Source of the DNA: Acidobacteriota bacterium
GTDB taxonomy: Bacteria; Acidobacteriota; Blastocatellia; UBA7656
Direction: 5' to 3'
Length of the DNA stretch: 64,000 bases
Assembly: GCA_038040445.1 (NCBI GenBank)
Contig: JBBPIG010000016.1
Location: forward strand, 62,001 to 126,000
The position numbers and the translations under genes were made by a program. Under the pieces are notes generated by a model. The model saw only the letters and a program-made list of their open reading frames with translations, searched no databases and was not told where the DNA came from. Of this stretch, positions 3,817 through 37,258 are shown one piece after another (within the stretch, counting starts at the first letter, position 1; each line of letters starts with the position of its first letter).

Positions 3817-5427
3817 ATGCCGTCCAAGACACTGCTTACGAGGCTGGCAAACGGTTTCCCAGGCGGGTCACCTCGCTTGACGGCCTTGTTCATCGGAACT
3901 TCTATGGCATTGCTATATCTGCTTACTCTGACAGCAGACTATTACTGGGACGGGATCACCTTCGCACTGCAGATCGAAAAGGTGGCAAAGATGGAACGGG
4001 ACGCCGCCCTGCTCTTCCATCAGAATCACTTGTTTTATAACGGTGCATGCTATGTGCTCTATTGCGCCGCTCGCGCACTGGGCCTATCCATACGTGCACT
4101 CCACCTGCTGCAAGTGTTCAACGCAATTGCCGGTGGAATTACTGTTGGCGTCTTCTATCTCATAGCTTGGAGGGTAACGCACAGCCGGCACGCAACGATG
4201 ATCTCGACTGCCGCTCTTGGTTTTTCGGCCGTATGGTGGAAGGTGGCGACTGATGCGGACGCCTACGTCGTCAGTATGTTGTTGATGTTGATCTGTGCCT
4301 CCACTCTTTTAAGCGCGAAGCCGCGCTGGTTTCTCGCGGGATTTGCGCTTGCGGCGGCGATGCTCGTTCATCAACTGGCAATGCTGTTCTACCCTGCAGC
4401 GATAGTCGCGGTTTTCACAAATCGCAGTGTCGAGAAAAAGTTTCCATTTTCGGCGAAGCTGAGCGCATTGGCGTTGGGTGCGACAGCAATCGTCTATTAT
4501 CTTTGTGCCCGATTCTTCCACGATATAAGAGAGCCGCTCGGTGTCGTGAAGTGGGCGGTGTCAAATCCCGGTGGTGTCTCGCCGTCGTGGAATCCGCTGC
4601 GTGGGCTGGCGCTGCTCCCGCGCGGCAATCTGGATATGATCGTCGGGCATGACCTTGCTCTATACCGGAGCCAGGGCGGTTCGATCGAGAAGGTGGTTAC
4701 GTTGGCTGCTCTGCTCACCGCGATCTGTTTCTTAGTCGCGTTCGTGTTAAGAGTAAGGAACGCGGAATTGCTTAGAGCCTCGTTCAGTCTAGCTCCACAG
4801 GCGCGTGCCAGGTGGGCCGCGTGTGGCCCAGTTCTCATCGCGTGGATCGGCGCATACTCAGTCTTTTTGTTATTCTGGGAACCTTGGCAAGTGCTCTATC
4901 GCGCGTTTTACTTGCCCGCCTTCGCTCTTACGCTAGGCCTCGGTTTGAGCACTTATCAAACGGCCTTCCCTGCGCGAGCGACGGCGCTTCTGGTTGCTAC
5001 ACTGGCGCTTTTCAACTTTGCTTTCTTCATTTCTCCGCACATGAGAGCGGCCTCTAACCCGAGCGTTGCAGCAGCCCGCAACGCAAATCATGTGTGGAAT
5101 GCGAAAACCGTGATTTATTTCCTGGATCGCAATGAGGCGGACACTGCATTCGAATACTTCAATAACCAGACCCAATGGCGAAGATTCACTATACGAGAGC
5201 GGAGCGGCATTGATGATGAGATTCAGAATGCATCAAGCCAGGGCGGGCAGATCTGGCTAAACAAGGGCGCGGCTGAATCCGTTGGGTCCGAGTGGTTGTC
5301 GAAACGGGCGCATGGCAGGGAAATCACGCTTGACTCACCCTTCGCGCCGGCACGCTATGTTGAACTGCTCCCCAGTCGGTACGCGTCAAACAGTTCTTTA
5401 CCTGTTAGACATCCGAAGCTTTGGTGA
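3817..5427 (+). CDS. Polytopic membrane protein, putative GT-C type glycosyltransferase
   Basis: A 536-residue membrane protein with roughly ten hydrophobic helices and a short soluble C-terminal tail from about residue 430. The acidic motif [16 protein letters not shown] follows the first helix, in the place where GT-C glycosyltransferases (PMT/ArnT-like, DUF2723-like) carry the catalytic Asp. The next loop has NHLFYNG. Such enzymes use polyprenyl-phosphate sugars to modify proteins or lipids at the membrane; this assignment is by architecture, not by a diagnostic motif. The start at 3817 has only a weak AAGG upstream. The acylase gene follows at once, its likely start lying 63 bases past this stop. 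Confidence 0.6.
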
Positions 5428-29046: not shown

Positions 29047-29063
29047 TCAAGAGAGCGCGTGTA

Positions 29064-29123
29064 CCGTAGGTTGTCTAACCTGCGGCCCGGGTTAGGCGGG
29101 CATACCGCGGGTTGTCTAACCGG
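29064..29123. repeat. Palindromic repeat with AGGTTGTCTAACCT core
   Basis: CCGTAGGTT-GTCT-AACCTGCGG at 29064-29085 and a second copy CCGCGGGTTGTCTAACCGG at 29106-29124, with a partial inverted copy CCTAGACAACC near 29143. They sit in the 228-base gap before the BON gene. Confidence 0.6.
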
Positions 29124-29170
29124 CCCCGGTGACGAACGCATACCTAGACAACCGACTATACGCTTCCGCA

Positions 29171-29199
29171 TTGCCCGCGAGACAATTTGGGTCTATTAT
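29171..29199 (+). promoter_or_regulatory. Candidate sigma-70 promoter of the BON gene
   Basis: TTGCCC (29171-29176) and TATTAT (29194-29199) with a 17-base spacer, 75 bases before the ATG at 29275. Confidence 0.45.
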
Positions 29200-29274
29200 C
29201 TCGGCGACCACTGGTTGCAATGTCCTGGGTGCAGCCTCCAGTTCAAGTCATCAAATCAAACGAGGAGACAACCT

Positions 29275-29652
29275 ATGAAGAGAATTCCGATTTTTGTCCT
29301 GGCTCTGTTTCTTGCGACCAGTGCCGTTTGGGCGCAGAACAAAAACGCTAAGCCTGCGAAGGCAAAACCGGCGGCGGTCGATTGCTCCGCGACTACCGAC
29401 GCGCAGATCACCGAAAACGTGAAGGCCAAGCTTGCGGGAACGGCGTCGCTCAAAGACCAGACAATCAATGCCGCAACGAGCGGCGGCGAGGTCACACTCA
29501 CAGGCTCGGTGAAAAAGGGAAATCAAAAGGGTCTGGCAACCATGCAGGCCAAGCGCGTGCCTTGCGTGAAGAAAGTCGATAATCAAATCACTGTCGAAGG
29601 CGCCGCACCGAAGAAGCCCGCCAAGCCGAAAAACTCCAACAAGTCGATGTGA
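29275..29652 (+). CDS. Secreted BON-domain protein
   Basis: A 125-residue protein with a signal peptide (MKRIPIFVLALFLATSAVWA), a Lys/Ala/Pro-rich stretch, a BON domain (TDAQITENVKAKLAGTASLK, GGEVTLTGSVKKGNQKG, CVKKVDNQITVEG) and a Lys/Pro tail. BON domains bind phospholipid and occur in envelope proteins such as OsmY. GAGGAG precedes the ATG. It has its own candidate promoter and terminator. It is the last gene before the cassette array. Confidence 0.82.
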   Translation: MKRIPIFVLALFLATSAVWAQNKNAKPAKAKPAAVDCSATTDAQITENVKAKLAGTASLKDQTINAATSGGEVTLTGSVKKGNQKGLATMQAKRVPCVKKVDNQITVEGAAPKKPAKPKNSNKSM

Positions 29653-29976: not shown

Positions 29977-30063
29977 GTTCAACCCCGAATTGCGCGGGGC
30001 TGAGAGCGCGTCTGAGGGAGAACTCTTCTGAGCCGCCCCGCGCGAATTCTTACCTTGTTAGGC
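29977..30063 (-). other. attC site 7 of the cassette array
   Basis: Read on the minus strand: R'' GCCTAAC (30063-30057), L'' GAATTCGCGCGGGG, a variable loop, L' CCCCGCGCAATTC with one base fewer than L'' (an extrahelical base), and R' GTTGAAC (29983-29977), matching GTTRRRY. About 87 bases. It closes the cassette of the 81-residue gene at 30147-30392. Confidence 0.75.
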
Positions 30064-30146
30064 GGCCTTGTGTTGACGGATTCAACCATTCGTCATTGAA
30101 GCCAGATTCTAGTGTACAACTCTTTCTATTTGAACCTGAACAATAT

Positions 30147-30392
30147 CTAAGTCTCCTCTTCACCAGTAGGCTCACCTGTTGCGCCGAAGCCCGTCCTTAG
30201 ATGCTTAGCCTCAGTATCAAACCACAGAGGGGCCTCATTGCGTAGTAGGTCTACAATTAGTTGAAACTCCTCAGGGTTTGTGTAGGTGCGGTTGTCCAAC
30301 GCACTGTTTGCTATGTCATATAGCGCGATTCTGCCATCGTGATTATCGAGATCCCAGCGACTGTAGTAGCGGGAAATTTGTGTTAGAGCCAT
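30147..30392 (-). CDS. Cassette gene, small protein of unknown function
   Basis: An 81-residue protein from ATG 30392, with GAGAGGTG upstream; an in-frame TTG at 30410 is less likely. Sequence includes ISRYYSRWDLDNHDGRIALY and TNPEEFQLIVDLLRNEAPLW, ending in a Gly/Glu-rich tail. Mostly helical, soluble, no known motif. Base composition is less GC-rich than the chromosome around it. It lies between attC sites 6 and 7 in cassette orientation. Confidence 0.6.
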   Translation of the reverse strand: MALTQISRYYSRWDLDNHDGRIALYDIANSALDNRTYTNPEEFQLIVDLLRNEAPLWFDTEAKHLRTGFGATGEPTGEEET

Positions 30393-30638
30393 AGTTTCAC
30401 CTCTCTTCAACTTGGATTCAGAGTCAGTAGACCAGAATGAAATTCAAGTAGGAGTGAGGAACAACCTCAGAGGTATTCCTGTTGGATTTCTTCTAGACCT
30501 GCTCCTACAAATAACAGACGTAATTCGGAATAGAATCTATGCGTAAGTTTATTGATTCTTTCTTAACCCGTGTGTAGCGCAATTATTGGCAGTTTGACCA
30601 ACAGCGAGCGTCCACATTCCGAGAGAGGATCATGAAGC

Positions 30639-30707
30639 GCCTAACGTTTGACATGAGCGGCCGATGGAGGCCGCAGGTGAAGAGGTCCGCTCGATGGAAG
30701 GTTAGGC
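30639..30707 (-). other. attC site 6 of the cassette array
   Basis: Minus strand: R'' GCCTAAC (30707-30701), L'' ATCGAGCGG, loop, L' CCGCTCAT, R' GTTAGGC (30645-30639). 69 bases. It follows the stop of the 271-residue gene (30710) by two bases. Confidence 0.8.
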
Positions 30708-30709
30708 AG

Positions 30710-31525
30710 CTAGTCAGGCGGCGGAGATTCTGCGGATTCAGCTCCGCCTTTGGAGGACGAATGATCACGGCGCCACGCGCGCACGGCAACGACTAGAAAC
30801 GCACTCATGTACCCGGCAGAAAGCAGGAGCAAATATATTCTCTTCTGATAATCGCTTCTACGAACGCGTCGCCCCTCCAGATCAGCCGCCTGCTCAAGCT
30901 TCTTCGCTTGCGCCATCTGGGCGAACACAGTCGTTCTGAGGCCGAAGGCGGTCAGTTGCCGCGCGAGTTTGCGGTCCGGATCGCTTCGTACTTGTTCAAG
31001 AATTGAAGAAGCCGTCTGCAGGTCGCCTGCTTGAATGGCGACTAATACTCGCTCTCGGGGAATCAGGAGTTGGTCCATTGCCGCCAAGTCCTCGCGAAAC
31101 TTTGCAATCATCGCATCAGCGTCTGGCTCACCCACTTGCAGCGAGTCGAATACTGACGTCAAGGCATCAATGCCGCCGCGAGTCTCGGCAATCAGGCGTC
31201 TGGCCTCAGCGACGGTCGAGGGGGAAATTGGTCGGGCAGTCGGAACCGACTCGATTTCTGAGCGAAAGAACGATGCGGCTCGGATATTCGCGTCGACGAC
31301 CATCTCTATCGTCTTTGGGACCATATCGAGCTTTGCGGCGATTTGAGCGTAGCGCGTCGCGACCGCGCTGTCTTGAGCCACGAGCGCATTCTGTTGTGGT
31401 AAGTCCAAAATGGTATGCGCGGTAAAGGCGCTCGCAGCGAGGAAGACGGTCCACCCTGCGGCCCAGACCGGGCGTCGACTTCGGTGTTCGACGAACTGAT
31501 CAACGTCTCTGACGGGGTCTGACAT
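30710..31525 (-). CDS. Cassette gene, two-helix membrane protein
   Basis: A 271-residue protein with one transmembrane helix near residues 20-38 (VWAAGWTVFLAASAFTAHTI), a long helical extracytoplasmic region (about 40-225) and a second helix near 235-252 (IYLLLLSAGYMSAFLVVAVR), then a short polar tail. This resembles the four-helix sensor part of chemoreceptors or histidine kinases without any signalling domain. No clear Shine-Dalgarno site. It is bounded by attC 5 and attC 6. Function unknown. Confidence 0.65.
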   Translation of the reverse strand: MSDPVRDVDQFVEHRSRRPVWAAGWTVFLAASAFTAHTILDLPQQNALVAQDSAVATRYAQIAAKLDMVPKTIEMVVDANIRAASFFRSEIESVPTARPISPSTVAEARRLIAETRGGIDALTSVFDSLQVGEPDADAMIAKFREDLAAMDQLLIPRERVLVAIQAGDLQTASSILEQVRSDPDRKLARQLTAFGLRTTVFAQMAQAKKLEQAADLEGRRVRRSDYQKRIYLLLLSAGYMSAFLVVAVRAWRRDHSSSKGGAESAESPPPD

Positions 31526-31543
31526 GGTGTGGTCCGAGGAGCG

Positions 31544-31606
31544 GCCGAACGCTCCGCATCACCGTGCCGCGTAGTTTGCGGCTACGGTGCATGCGGCGAG
31601 TTGGGT
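31544..31606 (-). other. attC site 5 of the cassette array
   Basis: Minus strand: R'' ACCCAAC (31606-31600), L'' CGCCGCATGCACCG, perfect inner hairpin GCCGC/GCGGC, L' CGGTGATGCGGAGCG (one base fewer in the pairing block), R' GTTCGGC (31550-31544; one mismatch to GTTRRRY). 63 bases. Its R'' end, ACCCAAC preceded by CG, is the exact complement of the first bases of the cassette that starts at 32374. Confidence 0.75.
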
Positions 31607-31656
31607 CGCGAGTCGAAGGCAACCAGGCAGCTTGACTTTACGCATAGTACGATTCG

Positions 31657-31872
31657 CTAGGTCCTATTTTTGACCCACTCGTCTATGGCGCTCCTCGCCT
31701 TCGCAATTGCCTCTTGTTCAGTCCTACCCCAAAACTCCTTATTCCACGGATCGTCTGGGTGCATGTGGTAGCTCGAAGGCACGATAGCCTTCGCGCCGAA
31801 GTGATTATCTCCGACCGGGGGTTTGATAGGGTACGTAGTGATCTCGTACGGTGGAACGTTATCCTCTTTCAT
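31657..31872 (-). CDS. Second gene of a two-gene cassette, small protein
   Basis: A protein of about 71 residues if started at ATG 31872; the frame is open to a GTG at 31941 with other ATGs between, so the start is uncertain. Content: PPYEITTYPIKPPVGDNHFG, SYHMHPDDPWNKEFWGRTEQ and a helical end EAIAKARSAIDEWVKN. The layout (short sheet, then helix with EAIAKARSAI) is reminiscent of HicB-like or similar small folds, but I do not recognise a family. It shares a cassette with the secreted protein gene at 32048. Confidence 0.5.
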   Translation of the reverse strand: MKEDNVPPYEITTYPIKPPVGDNHFGAKAIVPSSYHMHPDDPWNKEFWGRTEQEAIAKARSAIDEWVKNRT

Positions 31873-32047
31873 GTTCGATACCATCCTCGACACCATCATC
31901 TGTGACGAAAACCAAGCAACCCGGCCATGCGCAGTTCCCACACTCCGGTAGTCACGACCGCCGCGTTTCAGCGGCTGTCACGCAACGCGCGTTTTCCGTC
32001 TCAATCAGAGACGGCAGAAGAGACGTCAAGCGACGCGTTCCTTTGGA

Positions 32048-32335
32048 TCATCTTGGCTCAATGTAGGGAAGTACGTTTGAATTTATCCACATGGTAGTAA
32101 GTCTCCCTGTAGTAGGTGATTGGGCTTCTGCCGTTACCCAGCCTGTATTTGACACTTCTGTGACTCTGAAGGCCATCGCGCCGGAAGTGTATGTCTTGCC
32201 CACCTGAAGAAACGACGGAGGTGGTGCAGCCTCAACTGTGCTATCAGAAGAGTTATTGAAGTTCGTGGCGCAGTTGAGAGCTAGTAGCAGTGCAACTAGC
32301 ACAAGCATCACTCTCACAAATCTATCAATTTTCAT
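32048..32335 (-). CDS. Cassette gene, small secreted protein
   Basis: A 95-residue protein with AAAGGAGG before the ATG. N-terminal hydrophobic segment VRVMLVLVALLLALNCATNF: a signal peptide, possibly a lipoprotein though Asn before Cys is unusual for a lipobox. The mature part (SFLQVGKTYTSGAMAFRVTE, WVTAEAQSPTTGRLTTMWIN) is predicted beta-rich. Function unknown. It starts 34 bases inside its cassette. Confidence 0.65.
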   Translation of the reverse strand: MKIDRFVRVMLVLVALLLALNCATNFNNSSDSTVEAAPPPSFLQVGKTYTSGAMAFRVTEVSNTGWVTAEAQSPTTGRLTTMWINSNVLPYIEPR

Positions 32336-32368
32336 CTCGAGCCTCCTTTCTTTTTATCGCTCGAAGCG

Positions 32369-32431
32369 ACCCAACGGCCTGCGGTTGAGCGGCCGCGCTT
32401 TTCAGCGGTCCGCTCCAACCGCTTGTTAGCC
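32369..32431 (-). other. attC site 4 of the cassette array
   Basis: Minus strand: R'' GGCTAAC (32431-32425), L'' GCGGTTGGAGCGG, loop, L' CCGCTCAACCGC (one base fewer: extrahelical G), R' GTTGGGT (32375-32369), matching GTTRRRY. 63 bases. R'' is the complement of the first bases of its own cassette (TTAGCCGG at 33091 downward). Confidence 0.85.
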
Positions 32432-32445
32432 GGGCCCGGCATCGT

Positions 32446-33027
32446 CTACCAGAGGTGCGGAATAAGACGCTTCGTCCGTGCCGTGTAAGCAGCGTATTCG
32501 TTGCCAAATTGCTGGGCCATCATTCTCTCTTCCGCGCCGAGACGAAGTGCAATGAGGACCGCGAACGCGACCGAGTTCGAGAGACCTGCCACCCAGTTCG
32601 GGATAACGAGGGCCTGGCCGACGGAGTAGAGGGCCAACGCCGAGTACATCGGGTGGCGGACCCCGCGATAAACGCCTTGCGTGATAAGTCGATGCCCCTC
32701 GCGTACCTCCAAAGTGATCGACCAATTCGTACCGAGATCAGCGTGCGACCGATAGAAGAGCCAGAGGCCGATCACGAAGCACATCACGCCAGCAACGAGC
32801 GGGCCGGTGCGCAGCGGGTACTCAGCGAACCAGAACGCTGGTGACGCGACCCAGATCAGAGGGATGAAGAATCCCACCCACGCGAGAACCAAGAGGCCGG
32901 TCTCCAGCGGGGTCTTGAGGCTCTTCGCGACCTTGACACTGCGACTTCGGTGGCCATGCGGCGCGCGAATAGCCATCATCACCACTGTGGCTACGAGTAC
33001 GACAGCTTTCGCGATCCACGGATTCAT
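32446..33027 (-). CDS. Cassette gene, isoprenylcysteine methyltransferase-like membrane protein
   Basis: A 193-residue protein with five hydrophobic segments and the ICMT/PEMT signature near the C-terminus: GVYRGVRHPMYSALALYSVG followed by LGAEERMMAQQFGNEYAAYT. Bacterial members are SAM-dependent methyltransferases of unknown substrates. Start ATG 33027 has GAAAGGTGATT upstream; a TTG at 33033 is less likely. The gene fills the cassette between attC 3 and attC 4, its stop 15 bases before attC 4. Confidence 0.85.
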   Translation of the reverse strand: MNPWIAKAVVLVATVVMMAIRAPHGHRSRSVKVAKSLKTPLETGLLVLAWVGFFIPLIWVASPAFWFAEYPLRTGPLVAGVMCFVIGLWLFYRSHADLGTNWSITLEVREGHRLITQGVYRGVRHPMYSALALYSVGQALVIPNWVAGLSNSVAFAVLIALRLGAEERMMAQQFGNEYAAYTARTKRLIPHLW

Positions 33028-33085
33028 TGCCAATCACCTTTCTCTTTCACCCAGCCGACTGCGATGTCGTCAAGTGCGTCTGTCC

Positions 33086-33143
33086 GGCTAACGTTTGAGT
33101 TCACCGGCCGCCGGAGGCGTTCCGGTGGAACGAACGGTTAGGC
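33086..33143 (-). other. attC site 3 of the cassette array
   Basis: Minus strand: R'' GCCTAAC (33143-33137), L'' GTTCCACCGG, short loop, L' CCGGTGAAC (one base fewer), R' GTTAGCC (33092-33086). 58 bases. The TAA stop of the preceding gene (33138) lies inside R''. The 12 bases around R'' (TTTGTCGCCTAA) complement the first bases of its cassette (TTAGGCGACAA at 33655 downward). Confidence 0.88.
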
Positions 33144-33563
33144 GACAAACGCGAACCTGTAGTTGACGCTGTCTTCGCTCGCTCGGGCCAGAAAGGCAGC
33201 GCCGAGTTGCGTGAGCGCGTACTCGCCCAGCGTGGGCTGAGCTAGCCCGAGGAGACAGAGAAATCTAAGCCGGTAGGTCAGGTTGGTCTCAAACGGTAAG
33301 CCATTCGGCTCCTGGCGCTGGCGCATGGCTTCGACGACTGGATACAGCTGCCCCTCTGTTTGCTTAGATCCGGCCTGCCGAAGCGCGAGCAAAATGCGCA
33401 CGCAATTCGTCGTAACAGCGTGCTTGCTAAGTTGGTCGTATGTCTTGTCAACGACTTCCCGAGCTTTGGCCGTTGGTTCCCGTTTTCCCGCGAGCTCAAG
33501 CAGCTTTCCTATGAGCGTTCCTGAGGCAGTGACGATGGCAGCGGCAATTGCTGGCTCGATCAT
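33138..33563 (-). CDS. Cassette gene, hypothetical protein
   Basis: A 141-residue protein with AAGGAGAT before its ATG. The first 25 residues form a hydrophobic helix (IAAAIVTASGTLIGKLLELA), then charged helices and a C-terminal part (ETNLTYRLRFLCLLGLAQPT, EYALTQLGAAFLARA) that looks like a small winged-helix-type unit. Possibly membrane-tethered. No known family. The stop codon is built by the attC R'' box. Its 5' end has been duplicated (see the repeat at 33521-33654). Confidence 0.65.
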   Translation of the reverse strand: MIEPAIAAAIVTASGTLIGKLLELAGKREPTAKAREVVDKTYDQLSKHAVTTNCVRILLALRQAGSKQTEGQLYPVVEAMRQRQEPNGLPFETNLTYRLRFLCLLGLAQPTLGEYALTQLGAAFLARASEDSVNYRFAFVA

Positions 33564-33654
33564 GGGGTATCTCCTTGTCGCCTAGGGTTTCTAAGACAGT
33601 GACTATGCCAGTGGCGATTGCTGGCTTGGTCACGGCGAATTTCCTTGTCGCCTA
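33521..33654. repeat. Imperfect 64-base tandem duplication of a cassette 5' end
   Basis: 33521-33584 and 33591-33654 align without gaps at an offset of exactly 70 bases and about 80% identity. Each copy holds the first codons of the 33138-33563 gene, its ribosome-binding site and the cassette start (TTGTCGCCTA). The outer copy has GTG where the gene has ATG. Confidence 0.8.
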
Positions 33655-33741
33655 ACGCCCCGCGTAACCGGGCGCGCGCCGAACACTGGATGAACCATGA
33701 GAAACCCGCTGCGCGCGCTCCGGTTCACGCGATTGTTAGGC
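33650..33741 (-). other. attC site 2 of the cassette array
   Basis: Minus strand: R'' GCCTAAC (33741-33735), L'' CGCGTGAACCGG, long loop with GCGCGCGC arms, L' CCGGTTACGCG (one base fewer), R' GTTAGGC (33656-33650). 92 bases. Follows the stop of the 106-residue gene. Confidence 0.85.
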
Positions 33742-33791
33742 GCGTTGTTGTTATCTTGCACCAAAGTTGAAGTGAAAGTGGTTCAAGTAAT

Positions 33792-34112
33792 TCATGTTGG
33801 AAATGGAAGAGCCTCAATCTGTTGCAGTGCATTCGGATGATTCTTCTTTGCTTTATACTCCTTCGTCGTGGAGAAGTCCTCGCTACCAATGACGTTAAGT
33901 GACAAAGCAGTCAATACTCCGGTAGCCGCTGCACCCTTGGCTATGAGTCCAACCCCGCGCCAGACCTTGTTAATATCTTCTGTCTCGATAGTGAATGTAC
34001 TGGTTTCCACTAGAAGCCAGCCGGCATCCATAAGAGCTGAAATCAGTTTATGCCGAGCGTTATTGTTGTGTGGCTTTCCCCAGTCCATAGTGATCAGGGC
34101 TCTATATTTCAT
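33792..34112 (-). CDS. Cassette gene, small alpha/beta protein
   Basis: A 106-residue protein with AAGGAGAAGG seven bases before its ATG. The N-terminus YRALITMDWGKPHNNNARHK, helix LISALMDAGW and strand LLVETSTFTI suggest a ferredoxin-like fold as in Cas2/VapD-type proteins; this is only a fold impression. A glycine/alanine-rich helix (LIAKGAAATGVLTALSL) follows. Notably lower GC than neighbours. Bounded by attC 1 and attC 2. Confidence 0.6.
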   Translation of the reverse strand: MKYRALITMDWGKPHNNNARHKLISALMDAGWLLVETSTFTIETEDINKVWRGVGLIAKGAAATGVLTALSLNVIGSEDFSTTKEYKAKKNHPNALQQIEALPFPT

Positions 34113-34161
34113 GTTTACCTTCTCCTTTTCCGAGTTCTTCTTATCATAGCCAAGCGCAAGC

Positions 34162-34221
34162 GCCTAACGCCTGAATTAAGCCGCGCCGCGAAGCGGCGTC
34201 GGCTTGAATGAGTTGTTAGGG
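34162..34221 (-). other. attC site 1 of the cassette array
   Basis: Minus strand: R'' CCCTAAC (34221-34215), L'' TTCAAGCCG, hairpin ACGCCGC-TTC-GCGGCG, L' CGGCTTAA (one base fewer), R' GTTAGGC (34168-34162). 60 bases, very close to the attC consensus known from mobile and chromosomal integrons. R'' with its flank (GCGCCCTAAC) complements the first bases of the TIR cassette (TTAGGGCGC at 35152 downward). Confidence 0.92.
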
Positions 34222-34326
34222 CGCACAGTCACGGAGAACTGAGCACTATGCGCTCTAATACCGACAACCGATCTAGCAACTGCTGCTGCGTGTCAGCGGC
34301 CACCCAGACCTGTGTGGGTAACAAAG

Positions 34327-35031
34327 CTAGAGGGTGACCAGCTCCGCGAGCTTGGCCGCGACGTTCGCCATCGGCTCTTCTGCAGTGCTCAGGCCACTTC
34401 GCGAGCCGAGCAAGGGACTGACTTCGCGGAGAGCTTCATAGGTCGTGTCGTGCACGATGGGAACGAGCAGATCACGCGCCAAGAGTGCCGAAAGCTCCTT
34501 GTCGGCGATACCTTCTCCTGCGAGGCGGCGCAGCAGCGCAGGGGTCACCAGCACGATCCCGACTCGCGACTTCGCCAGTCCCTTGTCGATTTCGCGGAGC
34601 AACGGCGTACCGAGGGCGACGTCCTTCTCGCTGAACCAGACCGAGACACCGCGCGACTCGAGCAGATCGTGAAGCTCCTTGGCGGCCCCGCTCCGGTCGT
34701 CCCACGCGTGGCAGAGAAAGACGTCCCGACGGTCAGGCAGGGACGCTCGATTCTCGACGCTGGTGCGGACCGGCGTGAGTGCCCGCACCTGTGCGTCCGT
34801 GTACACCACGGACGAACCTGCTCGCGACCAGCGGGGCCTTACGCTGCTACCGGACCCGCCGACGCTGCTCCGGCCGCCCCCGCTGCTCCCCGACGAGGAG
34901 TAGGACGGGGACGAGTACGACCCGTAGCTGCTGTAGCCGCTGTAGCGGCCATAGCGGCCACCACATGCGGGGCAGTCCGCTGCAGCGCTCGCTGTGCGAT
35001 GGCCTCTTACTGGTGCTGTGCATCTTGCCAT
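34327..35031 (-). CDS. Cassette gene, TIR-domain protein with zinc-knuckle-like N-terminus
   Basis: A 234-residue protein with AGGAGG before the ATG at 35031. Residues C4, H11, C20 and C23 could bind zinc; residues 26-67 are a Tyr/Ser/Gly-rich linker (YGRYSGYSSYGSYSSPSY). The TIR domain starts at about 101 (RRDVFLCHAWDDRSGAAKEL), with VSVWFSEKDVALGTPLLREI; Glu135 aligns with the catalytic Glu of TIR NAD-cleaving enzymes. Prokaryotic TIR proteins often deplete NAD in anti-phage defence, so a defence role is plausible but inferred. It is the first recognisable cassette of the array. Confidence 0.85.
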   Translation of the reverse strand: MARCTAPVRGHRTASAAADCPACGGRYGRYSGYSSYGSYSSPSYSSSGSSGGGRSSVGGSGSSVRPRWSRAGSSVVYTDAQVRALTPVRTSVENRASLPDRRDVFLCHAWDDRSGAAKELHDLLESRGVSVWFSEKDVALGTPLLREIDKGLAKSRVGIVLVTPALLRRLAGEGIADKELSALLARDLLVPIVHDTTYEALREVSPLLGSRSGLSTAEEPMANVAAKLAELVTL

Positions 35032-35353
35032 GTCGTCATCCTCCTATTTGTAATCGCTATTTCATCCACTCTTCTAGCCCTACTCCAAAGCGCCGCGCGA
35101 TAGTAGGCCAGTAGGTCTGGAAGAGCAGCGAGGGGCATCCGATGCGCCCTAACATGAAGTAGCCGTACTAAAAGCGTGTTGAATAATACCGCCGTTAGTA
35201 CTCCTATTCAAGACGCACCCTTCCACAGGATCAATCCGGACAACACTTCCGGTGGAGGCCCCCCGAGATAGGCTAACAATCAAGGCTAAGACTGCCCCGA
35301 GGCGAGCCGATCTTCGACTCCCAAGGCCCGGTCGAGACTAAGGGGCACGTTGA
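35032..35353. other. Array border: first cassette boundary and unassigned DNA
   Basis: Plus CCCTAAC at 35147-35153 (minus GTTAGGG) marks the 5' end of the TIR cassette. Beyond it, 35154-35353 has no gene; a second core-like GGCTAAC lies at 35266-35272. No attI or integrase fragment was recognised. The DUF885 gene follows. Confidence 0.55.
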
Positions 35354-37258
35354 CTATTCGATCAGCTTGCCCTTTTCCCCCGGCAGGAGCATTTGCCGAT
35401 GAACCCACAACGGGGCGTTGCCGTTTGAGAGCAACCGATCGTGGAACTCTCGAAGAGAAAACTGTTCATTCCGATCGCGCCTGTAGTCGTCGCGAAGCTT
35501 CAGTATTGCAAGTTTGCCCACTGAATAAACCAGGTATGTCGGATCAAACGTGCCGCGTTCAGCTTCGATCCGCGACGGCGTCTCACCCATATAAGCGTTG
35601 TCCATGAAGAACCGCGTCGCTTGGTCCACAGTCATCCCGCCGGTGTGTTCTCGTATCCCCACCACGAACCGGCATAACCGCAGCAGCGCGCCCGCAAGCT
35701 GGCCCATCTTGATCTTCGGATCGCCTCCTCCGAACCCTTCGTCGATCATCATCTGTTCGGTGTAGTGAGCCCAGCCCTCGACAAAACTTGCAGGAGCAAT
35801 CGACCAAAGCTTGCGCACCGGTGACGCGGTCTGCTTGAGGTACGTGCCCTGCACGAAGTGCCCGGGATACACCTCGTGAATCGAAGTCGTCCAGAGCTGC
35901 GGGTAGTTGATCGAGCCCAGATACTCTTCTCTTTGCTTCTCGGTCCATTTCGGATCGACGTCGGTGATCAGATAGCGCGCACGCAACGGGCGGCTCTCGA
36001 ACGGACCGGGCGTCCACATGCTGGCCGTCGACCACCGCATGAAATCAGGCGTGGGCGCTACGACGGGCGGCTCGGAAGGTATCAGCGTTACGATCTCTTT
36101 CTCTTTGATGAATCGAGCCAATGCGTCGAGCTGTTTCTGCGCCTCTTCGACCAGAGTGCCGGCCTTCGGGTGATCGCGCTGCACGTCAGCCCACACCGCA
36201 AGCGAGTTGCGCTTCGGGTCTATCCGCGAAGCTGTTTTCTTGAACTCCTCCTGAGTCTTTGCGAGCTCACGCTCGGCGATCTTCAAAAGCTTATCGACCG
36301 GAACATCGATGCCTTCGTCGTACTTTAGCTTCGCTTCATAATTCTCTTTGCCGATTGCGAAGGTCGCTTTCAGGTCGGGTTTTATCCCTTCAAGGTGCTT
36401 GATGTACTTTGCGATCGCATCGGCGGCAGTCCTGGTGGAGTTCTTAAACTCGGATTGAAGCTTCGAGTCCTTGACCGAAGCAAACGCCCTGGGCAGATCG
36501 GTCTGAACGAAACTCAGCGTGCCTTTGAAGGTGTCGATCGCGATCTTCAAAAACACGGCAGGCGGCTGCCGCACGTTTGCGCGCGCGGAATCCAGCAAGC
36601 GCGGGACGAGCTTCTGTTTCGCAATCAGATGGCGAATTCGAGAGTCGGCGGGCGCGTATTCGAACATCGCAATCTGCAGCAGGGCGGTCGAGAGCACGTC
36701 GTTGTAGATCTGCGGGTTGCGCTCGTAGCTTTTGATCTGCTCGAGCTCGAGCAGACGAGCGTTGATGTTCGACGAAAGAATCTGGTAGTCGAATGTGTCT
36801 GACAGAGGTAGTTCGAGCGGCGGAATCTTTTCAAGACGCGACTGGAATGCCTTGATGGCGGAAATCTCGGCGGCGATAGCTCCGGCGCTGTAGTCTTCGA
36901 GGTGCCCGTCCCAAGCATGGATGCCGCTGGCCGCCGCGAGCGTAGGGTGGCGCGAGTGCAGATCCAACAGGTACTCGGCGACAAGCTTTGGAAACTTAGC
37001 AGCAGCCATTTCGCTTTTTGATTCTCTTGTTTGAGCCGCAGCTACCCGCGAAAAAAGAGACTTAGAACCAGGAAAATAACTTGCAAAAACCACTGAGCAA
37101 ATCAGCAACGATATTGGGTAGTGTCCTAACTTTAATCTCTCTGCGCCACCTCTGCGTCCTCTGCGTCTCTGCGGTGAAGGGTTCTCGGCATTGGGGTTCA
37201 CCGCAGACACGCAGAGGACGCAAAGGTCACGCAGAGAAGACAATGGAATTCCCTTCAT
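35354..37258 (-). CDS. DUF885 family protein
   Basis: A 634-residue frame. From about residue 85 it is a DUF885 protein (AAAKFPKLVAEYLLDLHSRH...), a family with zincin-like motifs: HEVYPGHFVQGTYL and EGWAHYTEQMMIDEGFG. These are thought to be secreted metallopeptidases. The first 43 residues (MKGIPLSSLRDLCVLCVSAV...) are encoded by a dispersed intergenic repeat. Residues 46-75 look like a signal sequence, so true initiation may be at a TTG inside it; the ATG at 37009 would lose the signal. The ATG at 37258 abuts the proC stop (TAGATG). Confidence 0.82.
   Translation of the reverse strand: MKGIPLSSLRDLCVLCVSAVNPNAENPSPQRRRGRRGGAERLKLGHYPISLLICSVVFASYFPGSKSLFSRVAAAQTRESKSEMAAAKFPKLVAEYLLDLHSRHPTLAAASGIHAWDGHLEDYSAGAIAAEISAIKAFQSRLEKIPPLELPLSDTFDYQILSSNINARLLELEQIKSYERNPQIYNDVLSTALLQIAMFEYAPADSRIRHLIAKQKLVPRLLDSARANVRQPPAVFLKIAIDTFKGTLSFVQTDLPRAFASVKDSKLQSEFKNSTRTAADAIAKYIKHLEGIKPDLKATFAIGKENYEAKLKYDEGIDVPVDKLLKIAERELAKTQEEFKKTASRIDPKRNSLAVWADVQRDHPKAGTLVEEAQKQLDALARFIKEKEIVTLIPSEPPVVAPTPDFMRWSTASMWTPGPFESRPLRARYLITDVDPKWTEKQREEYLGSINYPQLWTTSIHEVYPGHFVQGTYLKQTASPVRKLWSIAPASFVEGWAHYTEQMMIDEGFGGGDPKIKMGQLAGALLRLCRFVVGIREHTGGMTVDQATRFFMDNAYMGETPSRIEAERGTFDPTYLVYSVGKLAILKLRDDYRRDRNEQFSLREFHDRLLSNGNAPLWVHRQMLLPGEKGKLIE
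37136..37240. repeat. CTCTGCG dispersed repeat, inverted arms
   Basis: Plus-strand arm at 37136-37179 (built of CTCTGCGTC-like units) and its inverted counterpart at 37197-37240. It lies inside the 5' end of the DUF885 frame. A related copy is at 38278-38362. Confidence 0.75.

Follow-up and report, generated by a model that had tools for sequence, protein, structure and literature searches.

On the minus strand of the 64-kb window (the whole stretch of DNA that was analysed, 64,000 nucleotides of contig C16), seven gene cassettes with their attC sites lie between a DUF885-like gene and a BON-domain gene, and a noncoding, attI-like element stands directly ahead of the first cassette (Table 1). 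The first-pass annotation of this DNA had described an integron-type cassette array without an integrase and had listed seven attC-like sites, each by a position that proved to be the last base of its R' box. The sites were evaluated with R2, a covariance model of attC trained on 19 sites from two arrays of the same genome, one adjoining an intact integrase gene, intI (contig C28), and the other adjoining a deleted intI (contig C33), with no sequence of the window in the training set. R2 matched six of the seven sites at exactly the annotated positions, all on the minus strand, with E-values from 7e-18 to 2.4e-6 in the 64-kb window; beyond these six, the best match in the window that was not a mirror image reached E 0.9, and none was significant. 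The annotation had held that its reading should fall if a covariance-model search left most of these positions below threshold, and six of the seven came out above it. A box-and-arm scanner gave scores of at least 12 at the same six sites and one chance match elsewhere in the real window, compared to about zero matches with such scores per 64 kb of Markov sequence, and the six sites folded as bottom-strand DNA yielded z-scores from -2.9 to -4.9.

Table 1. Features of the cassette array and its flanks; positions are those of the window.
Feature	Position	Strand	Remarks
DUF885-like gene, left flank	35354-37258	-	Stop codon 200 bp before the junction; anchor for locus comparison
Platform element, type B, attI-like, ~125 bp	35153-35277	-	Covariance model R1, 135.7 bits
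Putative cassette promoter Pc, TTGAAT-17 nt-TATTAT	35183-35211	-	Pattern kept in seven element copies
Inverted repeat ACTAAYGGCGG / CCGCTNTTAGT	35167-35199	-	Within the platform element; conserved
Cassette 1, 985 bp	34168-35152	-	Start/end complementarity run 11
Cassette 1 ORF, 234 aa	34327-35031	-	ThsB-family (Thoeris) TIR protein; PADLOC PDLC00424; Pfam TIR_2
attC site 1	34162-34221	-	R2 E 3e-8
Cassette 2, 512 bp	33656-34167	-	ORF 33792-34112, 106 aa
attC site 2	33650-33741	-	R2 82.1 bits, E 7e-18
Cassette 3, 564 bp	33092-33655	-	ORF 33138-33563, 141 aa; start/end complementarity run 12
attC site 3	33086-33143	-	R2 E 1.2e-8
Cassette 4, 717 bp	32375-33091	-	ORF 32446-33033, isoprenylcysteine carboxyl methyltransferase family
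attC site 4	32369-32431	-	R2 E 1.1e-6
Cassette 5, 825 bp	31550-32374	-	ORFs 32048-32335 (95 aa, possible lipoprotein) and 31657-31941 (94 aa)
attC site 5	31544-31606	-	R2 E 2.4e-6
Cassette 6, 905 bp	30645-31549	-	ORF 30710-31525, 271 aa
attC site 6	30639-30707	-	R2 E 3.6e-8
Cassette 7, 662 bp	29983-30644	-	ORF 30147-30410, 87 aa; complementarity run 8
attC site 7, last of array	29977-30063	-	Arm, unpaired base and C33 similarity; not significant with R2
BON-domain gene	29059-29652	opposite to array	Far flank

The seventh site was missed by the default covariance-model search, since its R' box (GTTGAAC) is the foreign sequence that follows the last cassette; with the filters off it scored 4.2 bits, and its fold had a z-score of -1.5. 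Because it has a canonical R'' box and a 14-bp arm with a single unpaired base, and shares 90% identity with the C33 cassette array across 52 nt, this site was taken as real, and judged by these features it is a genuine end-of-array attC. By inspection of the sequences, L'' is one base longer than L' in all seven sites, where the annotation had claimed this for at least six. It had also noted that the start of a cassette complements the end of its own attC; the two examples that it quoted are exact, and across the array 51 of 77 positions beyond the GTT are complementary, a value reached by 3 of 5040 permutations, the complementarity being weakest in cassette 6, which also has one R-box mismatch. 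A search with the filters off revealed no hidden attC between the two ORFs of cassette 5, terminator-like sites within the array were not above chance, and a tmRNA was the sole Rfam match in the window.

A CALIN is defined by at least two clustered attC sites with no integrase nearby. The array comprises six significant sites and one further attC, and contig C16 contains no match to TIGR02249 or PF00589; a complete integron has intI in cis, and here the intact intI lies on another contig, C28. As the annotation had proposed, the array is by definition a CALIN in an acidobacterial chromosome; it is not a complete integron. CALINs are common and are usually regarded as degraded integrons; one survey counted 2961 CALINs and 2760 complete integrons (PMC9024848).

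The protein encoded by cassette 1 aligned to PADLOC PDLC00424 across all of its length (residues 1-234 of 234; 426 bits) and, by this match, is a Thoeris-type ThsB TIR protein. No ThsA was found beside it within the array, as the other cassette ORFs had no PADLOC match. The gene shares 83% DNA identity with a gene on a Bradyrhizobium plasmid, alongside which there was no convincing attC. The ORF of cassette 4 matched NF040696 with 223 bits (cut-off 160), while those of cassettes 2, 3, 5, 6 and 7 had no match in Pfam, NCBIfam or PADLOC.

The suggestion that an integrase might act from elsewhere was borne out to the extent that the genome encodes one intact IntI (C28:3329-4351; TIGR02249 459 bits, cut-off 265), which aligned over its full length to VchIntIA (2a3v) with an E-value of 6e-86, retains the catalytic R, K, H, R, H and Y positions as inspected in the alignment, and heads an array of well over ten attC sites. 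Two possible IntI-like recombinases on contigs C35 and C18 scored far below the IntI cut-off, with neither attI nor attC found alongside, and were set aside. The window array has attC types in common with those of C28 and C33, at 90-95% identity; for example, site 5 and an attC of the C28 integron share 95% identity across 62 nt. The window array resembles a sedentary chromosomal integron of the VchIntIA type in attC architecture, cassette logic and shared attC types, and differs from it in that the locus has no intI.

What the first-pass annotation missed lies just outside the array. A covariance model, R1, was built from the noncoding stretch before the first cassette, and the platform element within this stretch ends at the junction TTCATG|TT, where the G of G|TT is position 35153. 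As a candidate attI, the element stands ahead of the first cassette, ends in a G|TT junction and, as judged from sequence, has cassettes inserted there. It contains a putative sigma-70-like promoter that reads into the array and matches the consensus at 9 of 12 positions. A single promoter match of this kind in 5.6 kb is not above chance, and the evidence for Pc is its conservation across copies of the element rather than the single match: TTGnnT-17-TAnnAT occurs at the equivalent position in all seven copies, ahead of the inverted repeat and the junction. Inspection ruled against reading this repeat as a miniature attC, as it shows no R/L spacing and stops about 14 nt short of the junction. 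When the 200 bp between the DUF885-like gene and cassette 1 were searched for an intI remnant against the C28 and C33 intI regions, short chance matches only were obtained.

This genome carries the element four times (in the window and on C57, C1 and C17), and further copies were found in three relatives (G001, G003 and G005), spanning three genera of one family. A pattern search with its last 21 bases gave an exact match at C57 and a match with two mismatches at C1, and R1 added C17 (E 4e-12), G005 (E 9e-8) and G003 (E 3e-7); an R1 match in G006 was judged spurious. Among 162 genomes of the class the element was restricted to this family, and 396 genomes sampled from across the phylum yielded no match beyond the source genome. 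In the genomes that carry the element, none of the seven copies adjoins intI. Cassettes with attC start at G|TT in the window, C57, C1 and G001. At C17 and G003 the sequence beyond G|TT consists of long cassettes, identified by a weak attC and by complementarity between their ends and starts. The G005 copy lies at a contig end, and every copy with available downstream sequence leads into cassettes.

This recurrence bears on whether IntI simply placed the cassettes at an arbitrary chromosomal GTT, with the element unrelated to them. Such attG-type insertion is a known route, named in PMC12901181 and PMC12444791, and it would agree with the attC matches that this genome has at more than ten other small loci. 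However, one and the same 125-bp sequence stands ahead of the first cassette at separate loci, and its homology ends at the junction, whereas attG insertion calls for unrelated targets, and chance placement cannot yield a shared element; we regard this explanation as very improbable. The window array is like attG insertions in that IntI would have placed cassettes away from the attI of its own integron. It is unlike them in that a long sequence is conserved at separate loci, whereas descriptions of attG sites have them dispersed across many loci.

We examined the locus in relatives, a comparison that the annotation had recommended. The congener G001 has the DUF885-like ortholog (81% amino acid identity) and, behind it, the same noncoding stretch; the homology stops at the junction, where G001 holds a different cassette with its own attC. 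Likewise, the C17 and G003 copies mark one orthologous locus in two genera: 709 bp of upstream sequence are 81% identical up to the junction, the far flank resumes about 3.1 kb beyond it, and the intervening cassettes are unrelated. At both orthologous pairs, then, the cassettes differ and intI is absent. At C1, the element and its cassettes lie between potCD and tolQ; in G002 and G004, which represent two other genera, potCD directly adjoins tolQ with neither element nor attC, an empty site, and the C1 platform therefore probably arrived by insertion. In G001, the tolQ homolog is a distant one only. For C57, the far-side gene was not found near the orthologs, and G001 does not have the C57 gene.

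The empty site, together with four copies at unrelated loci of one genome and the conserved inverted repeat, could also point to a small mobile repeat or regulatory sequence which spreads independently and offers a good cassette target through its promoter or hairpin. Against this, reading the copies brought neither terminal inverted repeats nor target duplications to notice, the 3' end of the element coincides with the IntI junction, and a related promoter and junction sequence stands beside a real intI; we consider this explanation the least credible of those weighed here, with hardly any chance of being correct.

That related sequence is the attI of C28, which aligned with the window element around the -10 and at the terminal ATTC...ATG|TTAGG and differs from it by a stretch of about 25 bp holding one arm of the inverted repeat. 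R1 aligned to the C28 attI over its full length, ending at the attI junction, which favors the platform reading, although the match (11.2 bits, E-value about 1) is not significant alone. The C28-type attI occurs at four loci: beside the intact intI on C28, beside an intI with an in-frame internal deletion on C33, with a 3' pseudogene of intI on C13, and on C11 as an intergenic stretch kept without intI. As read from these sequences, the series is one of intI decay in this genome. It is the best support for the view that the window once held a complete integron with intI, attI and cassettes, from which intI was deleted to leave an inert CALIN and the element as the surviving attI and Pc, and CALINs are treated as degraded integrons in PMC9024848. 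However, intI is beside none of the seven window-type copies, the cassettes differ at the two orthologous pairs, and four independent and equally clean losses would be needed in one genome, so that this history appears unlikely, although it is the most serious of the alternatives.

Overall, the annotation was right that the array is a CALIN and incomplete in overlooking the element. With the element in view, the question is no longer about a degraded integron but about a family of platforms that have no integrase. We consider it probable that the genome carries dispersed integron platforms without an integrase, each with a Pc and an attI-like site, one of them bearing the seven-cassette array, and that IntI is supplied in trans. 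We favor this reading because copies of the element precede cassettes at G|TT at separate loci, and because orthologous loci hold different cassettes, an empty site exists, the C28 IntI is intact and attC types are shared between the arrays. In essence, the putative promoter of the platform would fire into the array; an IntI acting in trans, most likely that of C28, would join the folded attC of a circular cassette to TTCATG|TT; and, as insertion would occur at the junction, the newest cassette would be the one next to the promoter. We infer the role of the element as a recombination partner, the working promoter and the trans action of IntI from sequence comparison. Counting against the platform reading, the draft genome offers only a single intact intI, and the differing cassettes at orthologous sites could date from a formerly nearby intI. 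A further point against it is G001, which has the platform and other attC sites and no IntI above the cut-off, although this assembly is 92% complete and in 520 contigs. We advance tentatively, and lean slightly against, the wider proposal of a multi-platform integron, in which one IntI would serve dispersed, promoter-bearing attI platforms without an integrase that are themselves copied to new chromosomal places; if it is true, many cassettes would occupy the first, expressed position simultaneously.

The array shares with CALINs in general at least two attC sites, no intI nearby and an intact intI elsewhere in the genome, and is unlike them in what heads it, an attI-like element with a putative promoter that is present at four loci and in three genera. 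Mobilisation of CALINs in trans is stated in PMC12444791, which also describes Xanthomonas CALINs as intI-less arrays at positions conserved across species away from ilvD, with intI elsewhere, and in its passages on these arrays reports no shared element before the first cassette. Delta-attI gene cassettes (PMC12901181) are similar in that an attI away from its own integrase is still recombined by IntI1, and different in that the attI pieces sit on resistance cassettes in mobile integrons and not on chromosomal platforms. A search of open-access journal articles for orphan, multiple or attI-like sites found no description of a dispersed promoter-bearing element of this kind, and attI sites other than those of class 1 are little characterised (PMC9024848). 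A recurring element that marks the start of integrase-less arrays would give a sequence handle on attI without intI and would explain how some CALINs can be fixed in place yet change in content. It would also release an integron from the limit that confines good expression to the first cassettes of a single array, and a single integrase together with a single 125-bp sequence would allow a direct test of whether CALINs are dead or fed in trans.

The first site of the array is nearly identical to attC sites of clinical cassettes, matching the one by aac(6')-IIa of an Enterobacter plasmid at 96.8% identity across 63 nt and that of aadB at 93.8% identity.

Elsewhere in the source genome, integrase genes at other attI sites were found in several states of decay, as listed in the table together with some other features. 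Through its in-frame internal deletion, the intI on contig C33 has lost most of its N-terminal part and most of what is specific to IntI; beside this shortened gene lie a cassette array and an attI that is intact. At two further loci, cassettes follow an attI of the kind that adjoins the intact intI on contig C28.

Positions of the cassette gene, integrase remnants and attI or junction sites (L-numbers are contig excerpts)
Feature	Position	Source contig
Cassette-borne TIR gene of the Thoeris ThsB type	window 34327-35031	C16
intI with in-frame internal deletion	L018:7054-7428	C33
C28-type attI and intI pseudogene, then cassettes	L129 about 4600-4896	C13
C28-type attI without any intI, then cassettes	L133 about 4370-4547	C11
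Third junction kind, ahead of an array with attC sites	L131 about 3900-3954	C11:76954

The third kind of junction consists of a GC-rich hairpin leading into GTATGATTCATG|TTAGACC. Many more small loci with attC were found in this genome (C46, C4, C5, C10, C25, C32, C37, C52 and others), several of which are single attC sites; these loci may be attG insertions, platforms or contig ends.

Among the copies of the promoter-bearing attI-like element, similarity starts at GTTRGYYTATCTC (column 1; window about 35277), about 125 bp ahead of the junction. This far-end GTTRGYYTATCTC resembles an R' box, and the element may be flanked by two IntI core sites.

No ThsA accompanies the ThsB gene among the array's cassettes. 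The attC of the ThsB cassette (window 34162-34221) is nearly identical to attC sites from clinical resistance cassettes. Close relatives of the gene, found on one plasmid from Bradyrhizobium and one from Polaromonas, lack a clear attC next to them, and the ThsB cassette may therefore be an ordinary gene that became a cassette.

Within the array, cassette 3 begins with two diverged tandem copies of its leader and first codons, ahead of the 141-aa ORF (window 33556-33656). Beyond the array, GGTTAGACAACC and its complement recur several times in the noncoding stretch directly before a BON-domain gene (window 29060-29170), and one pair of these copies is a weak match to the attC covariance model R2.
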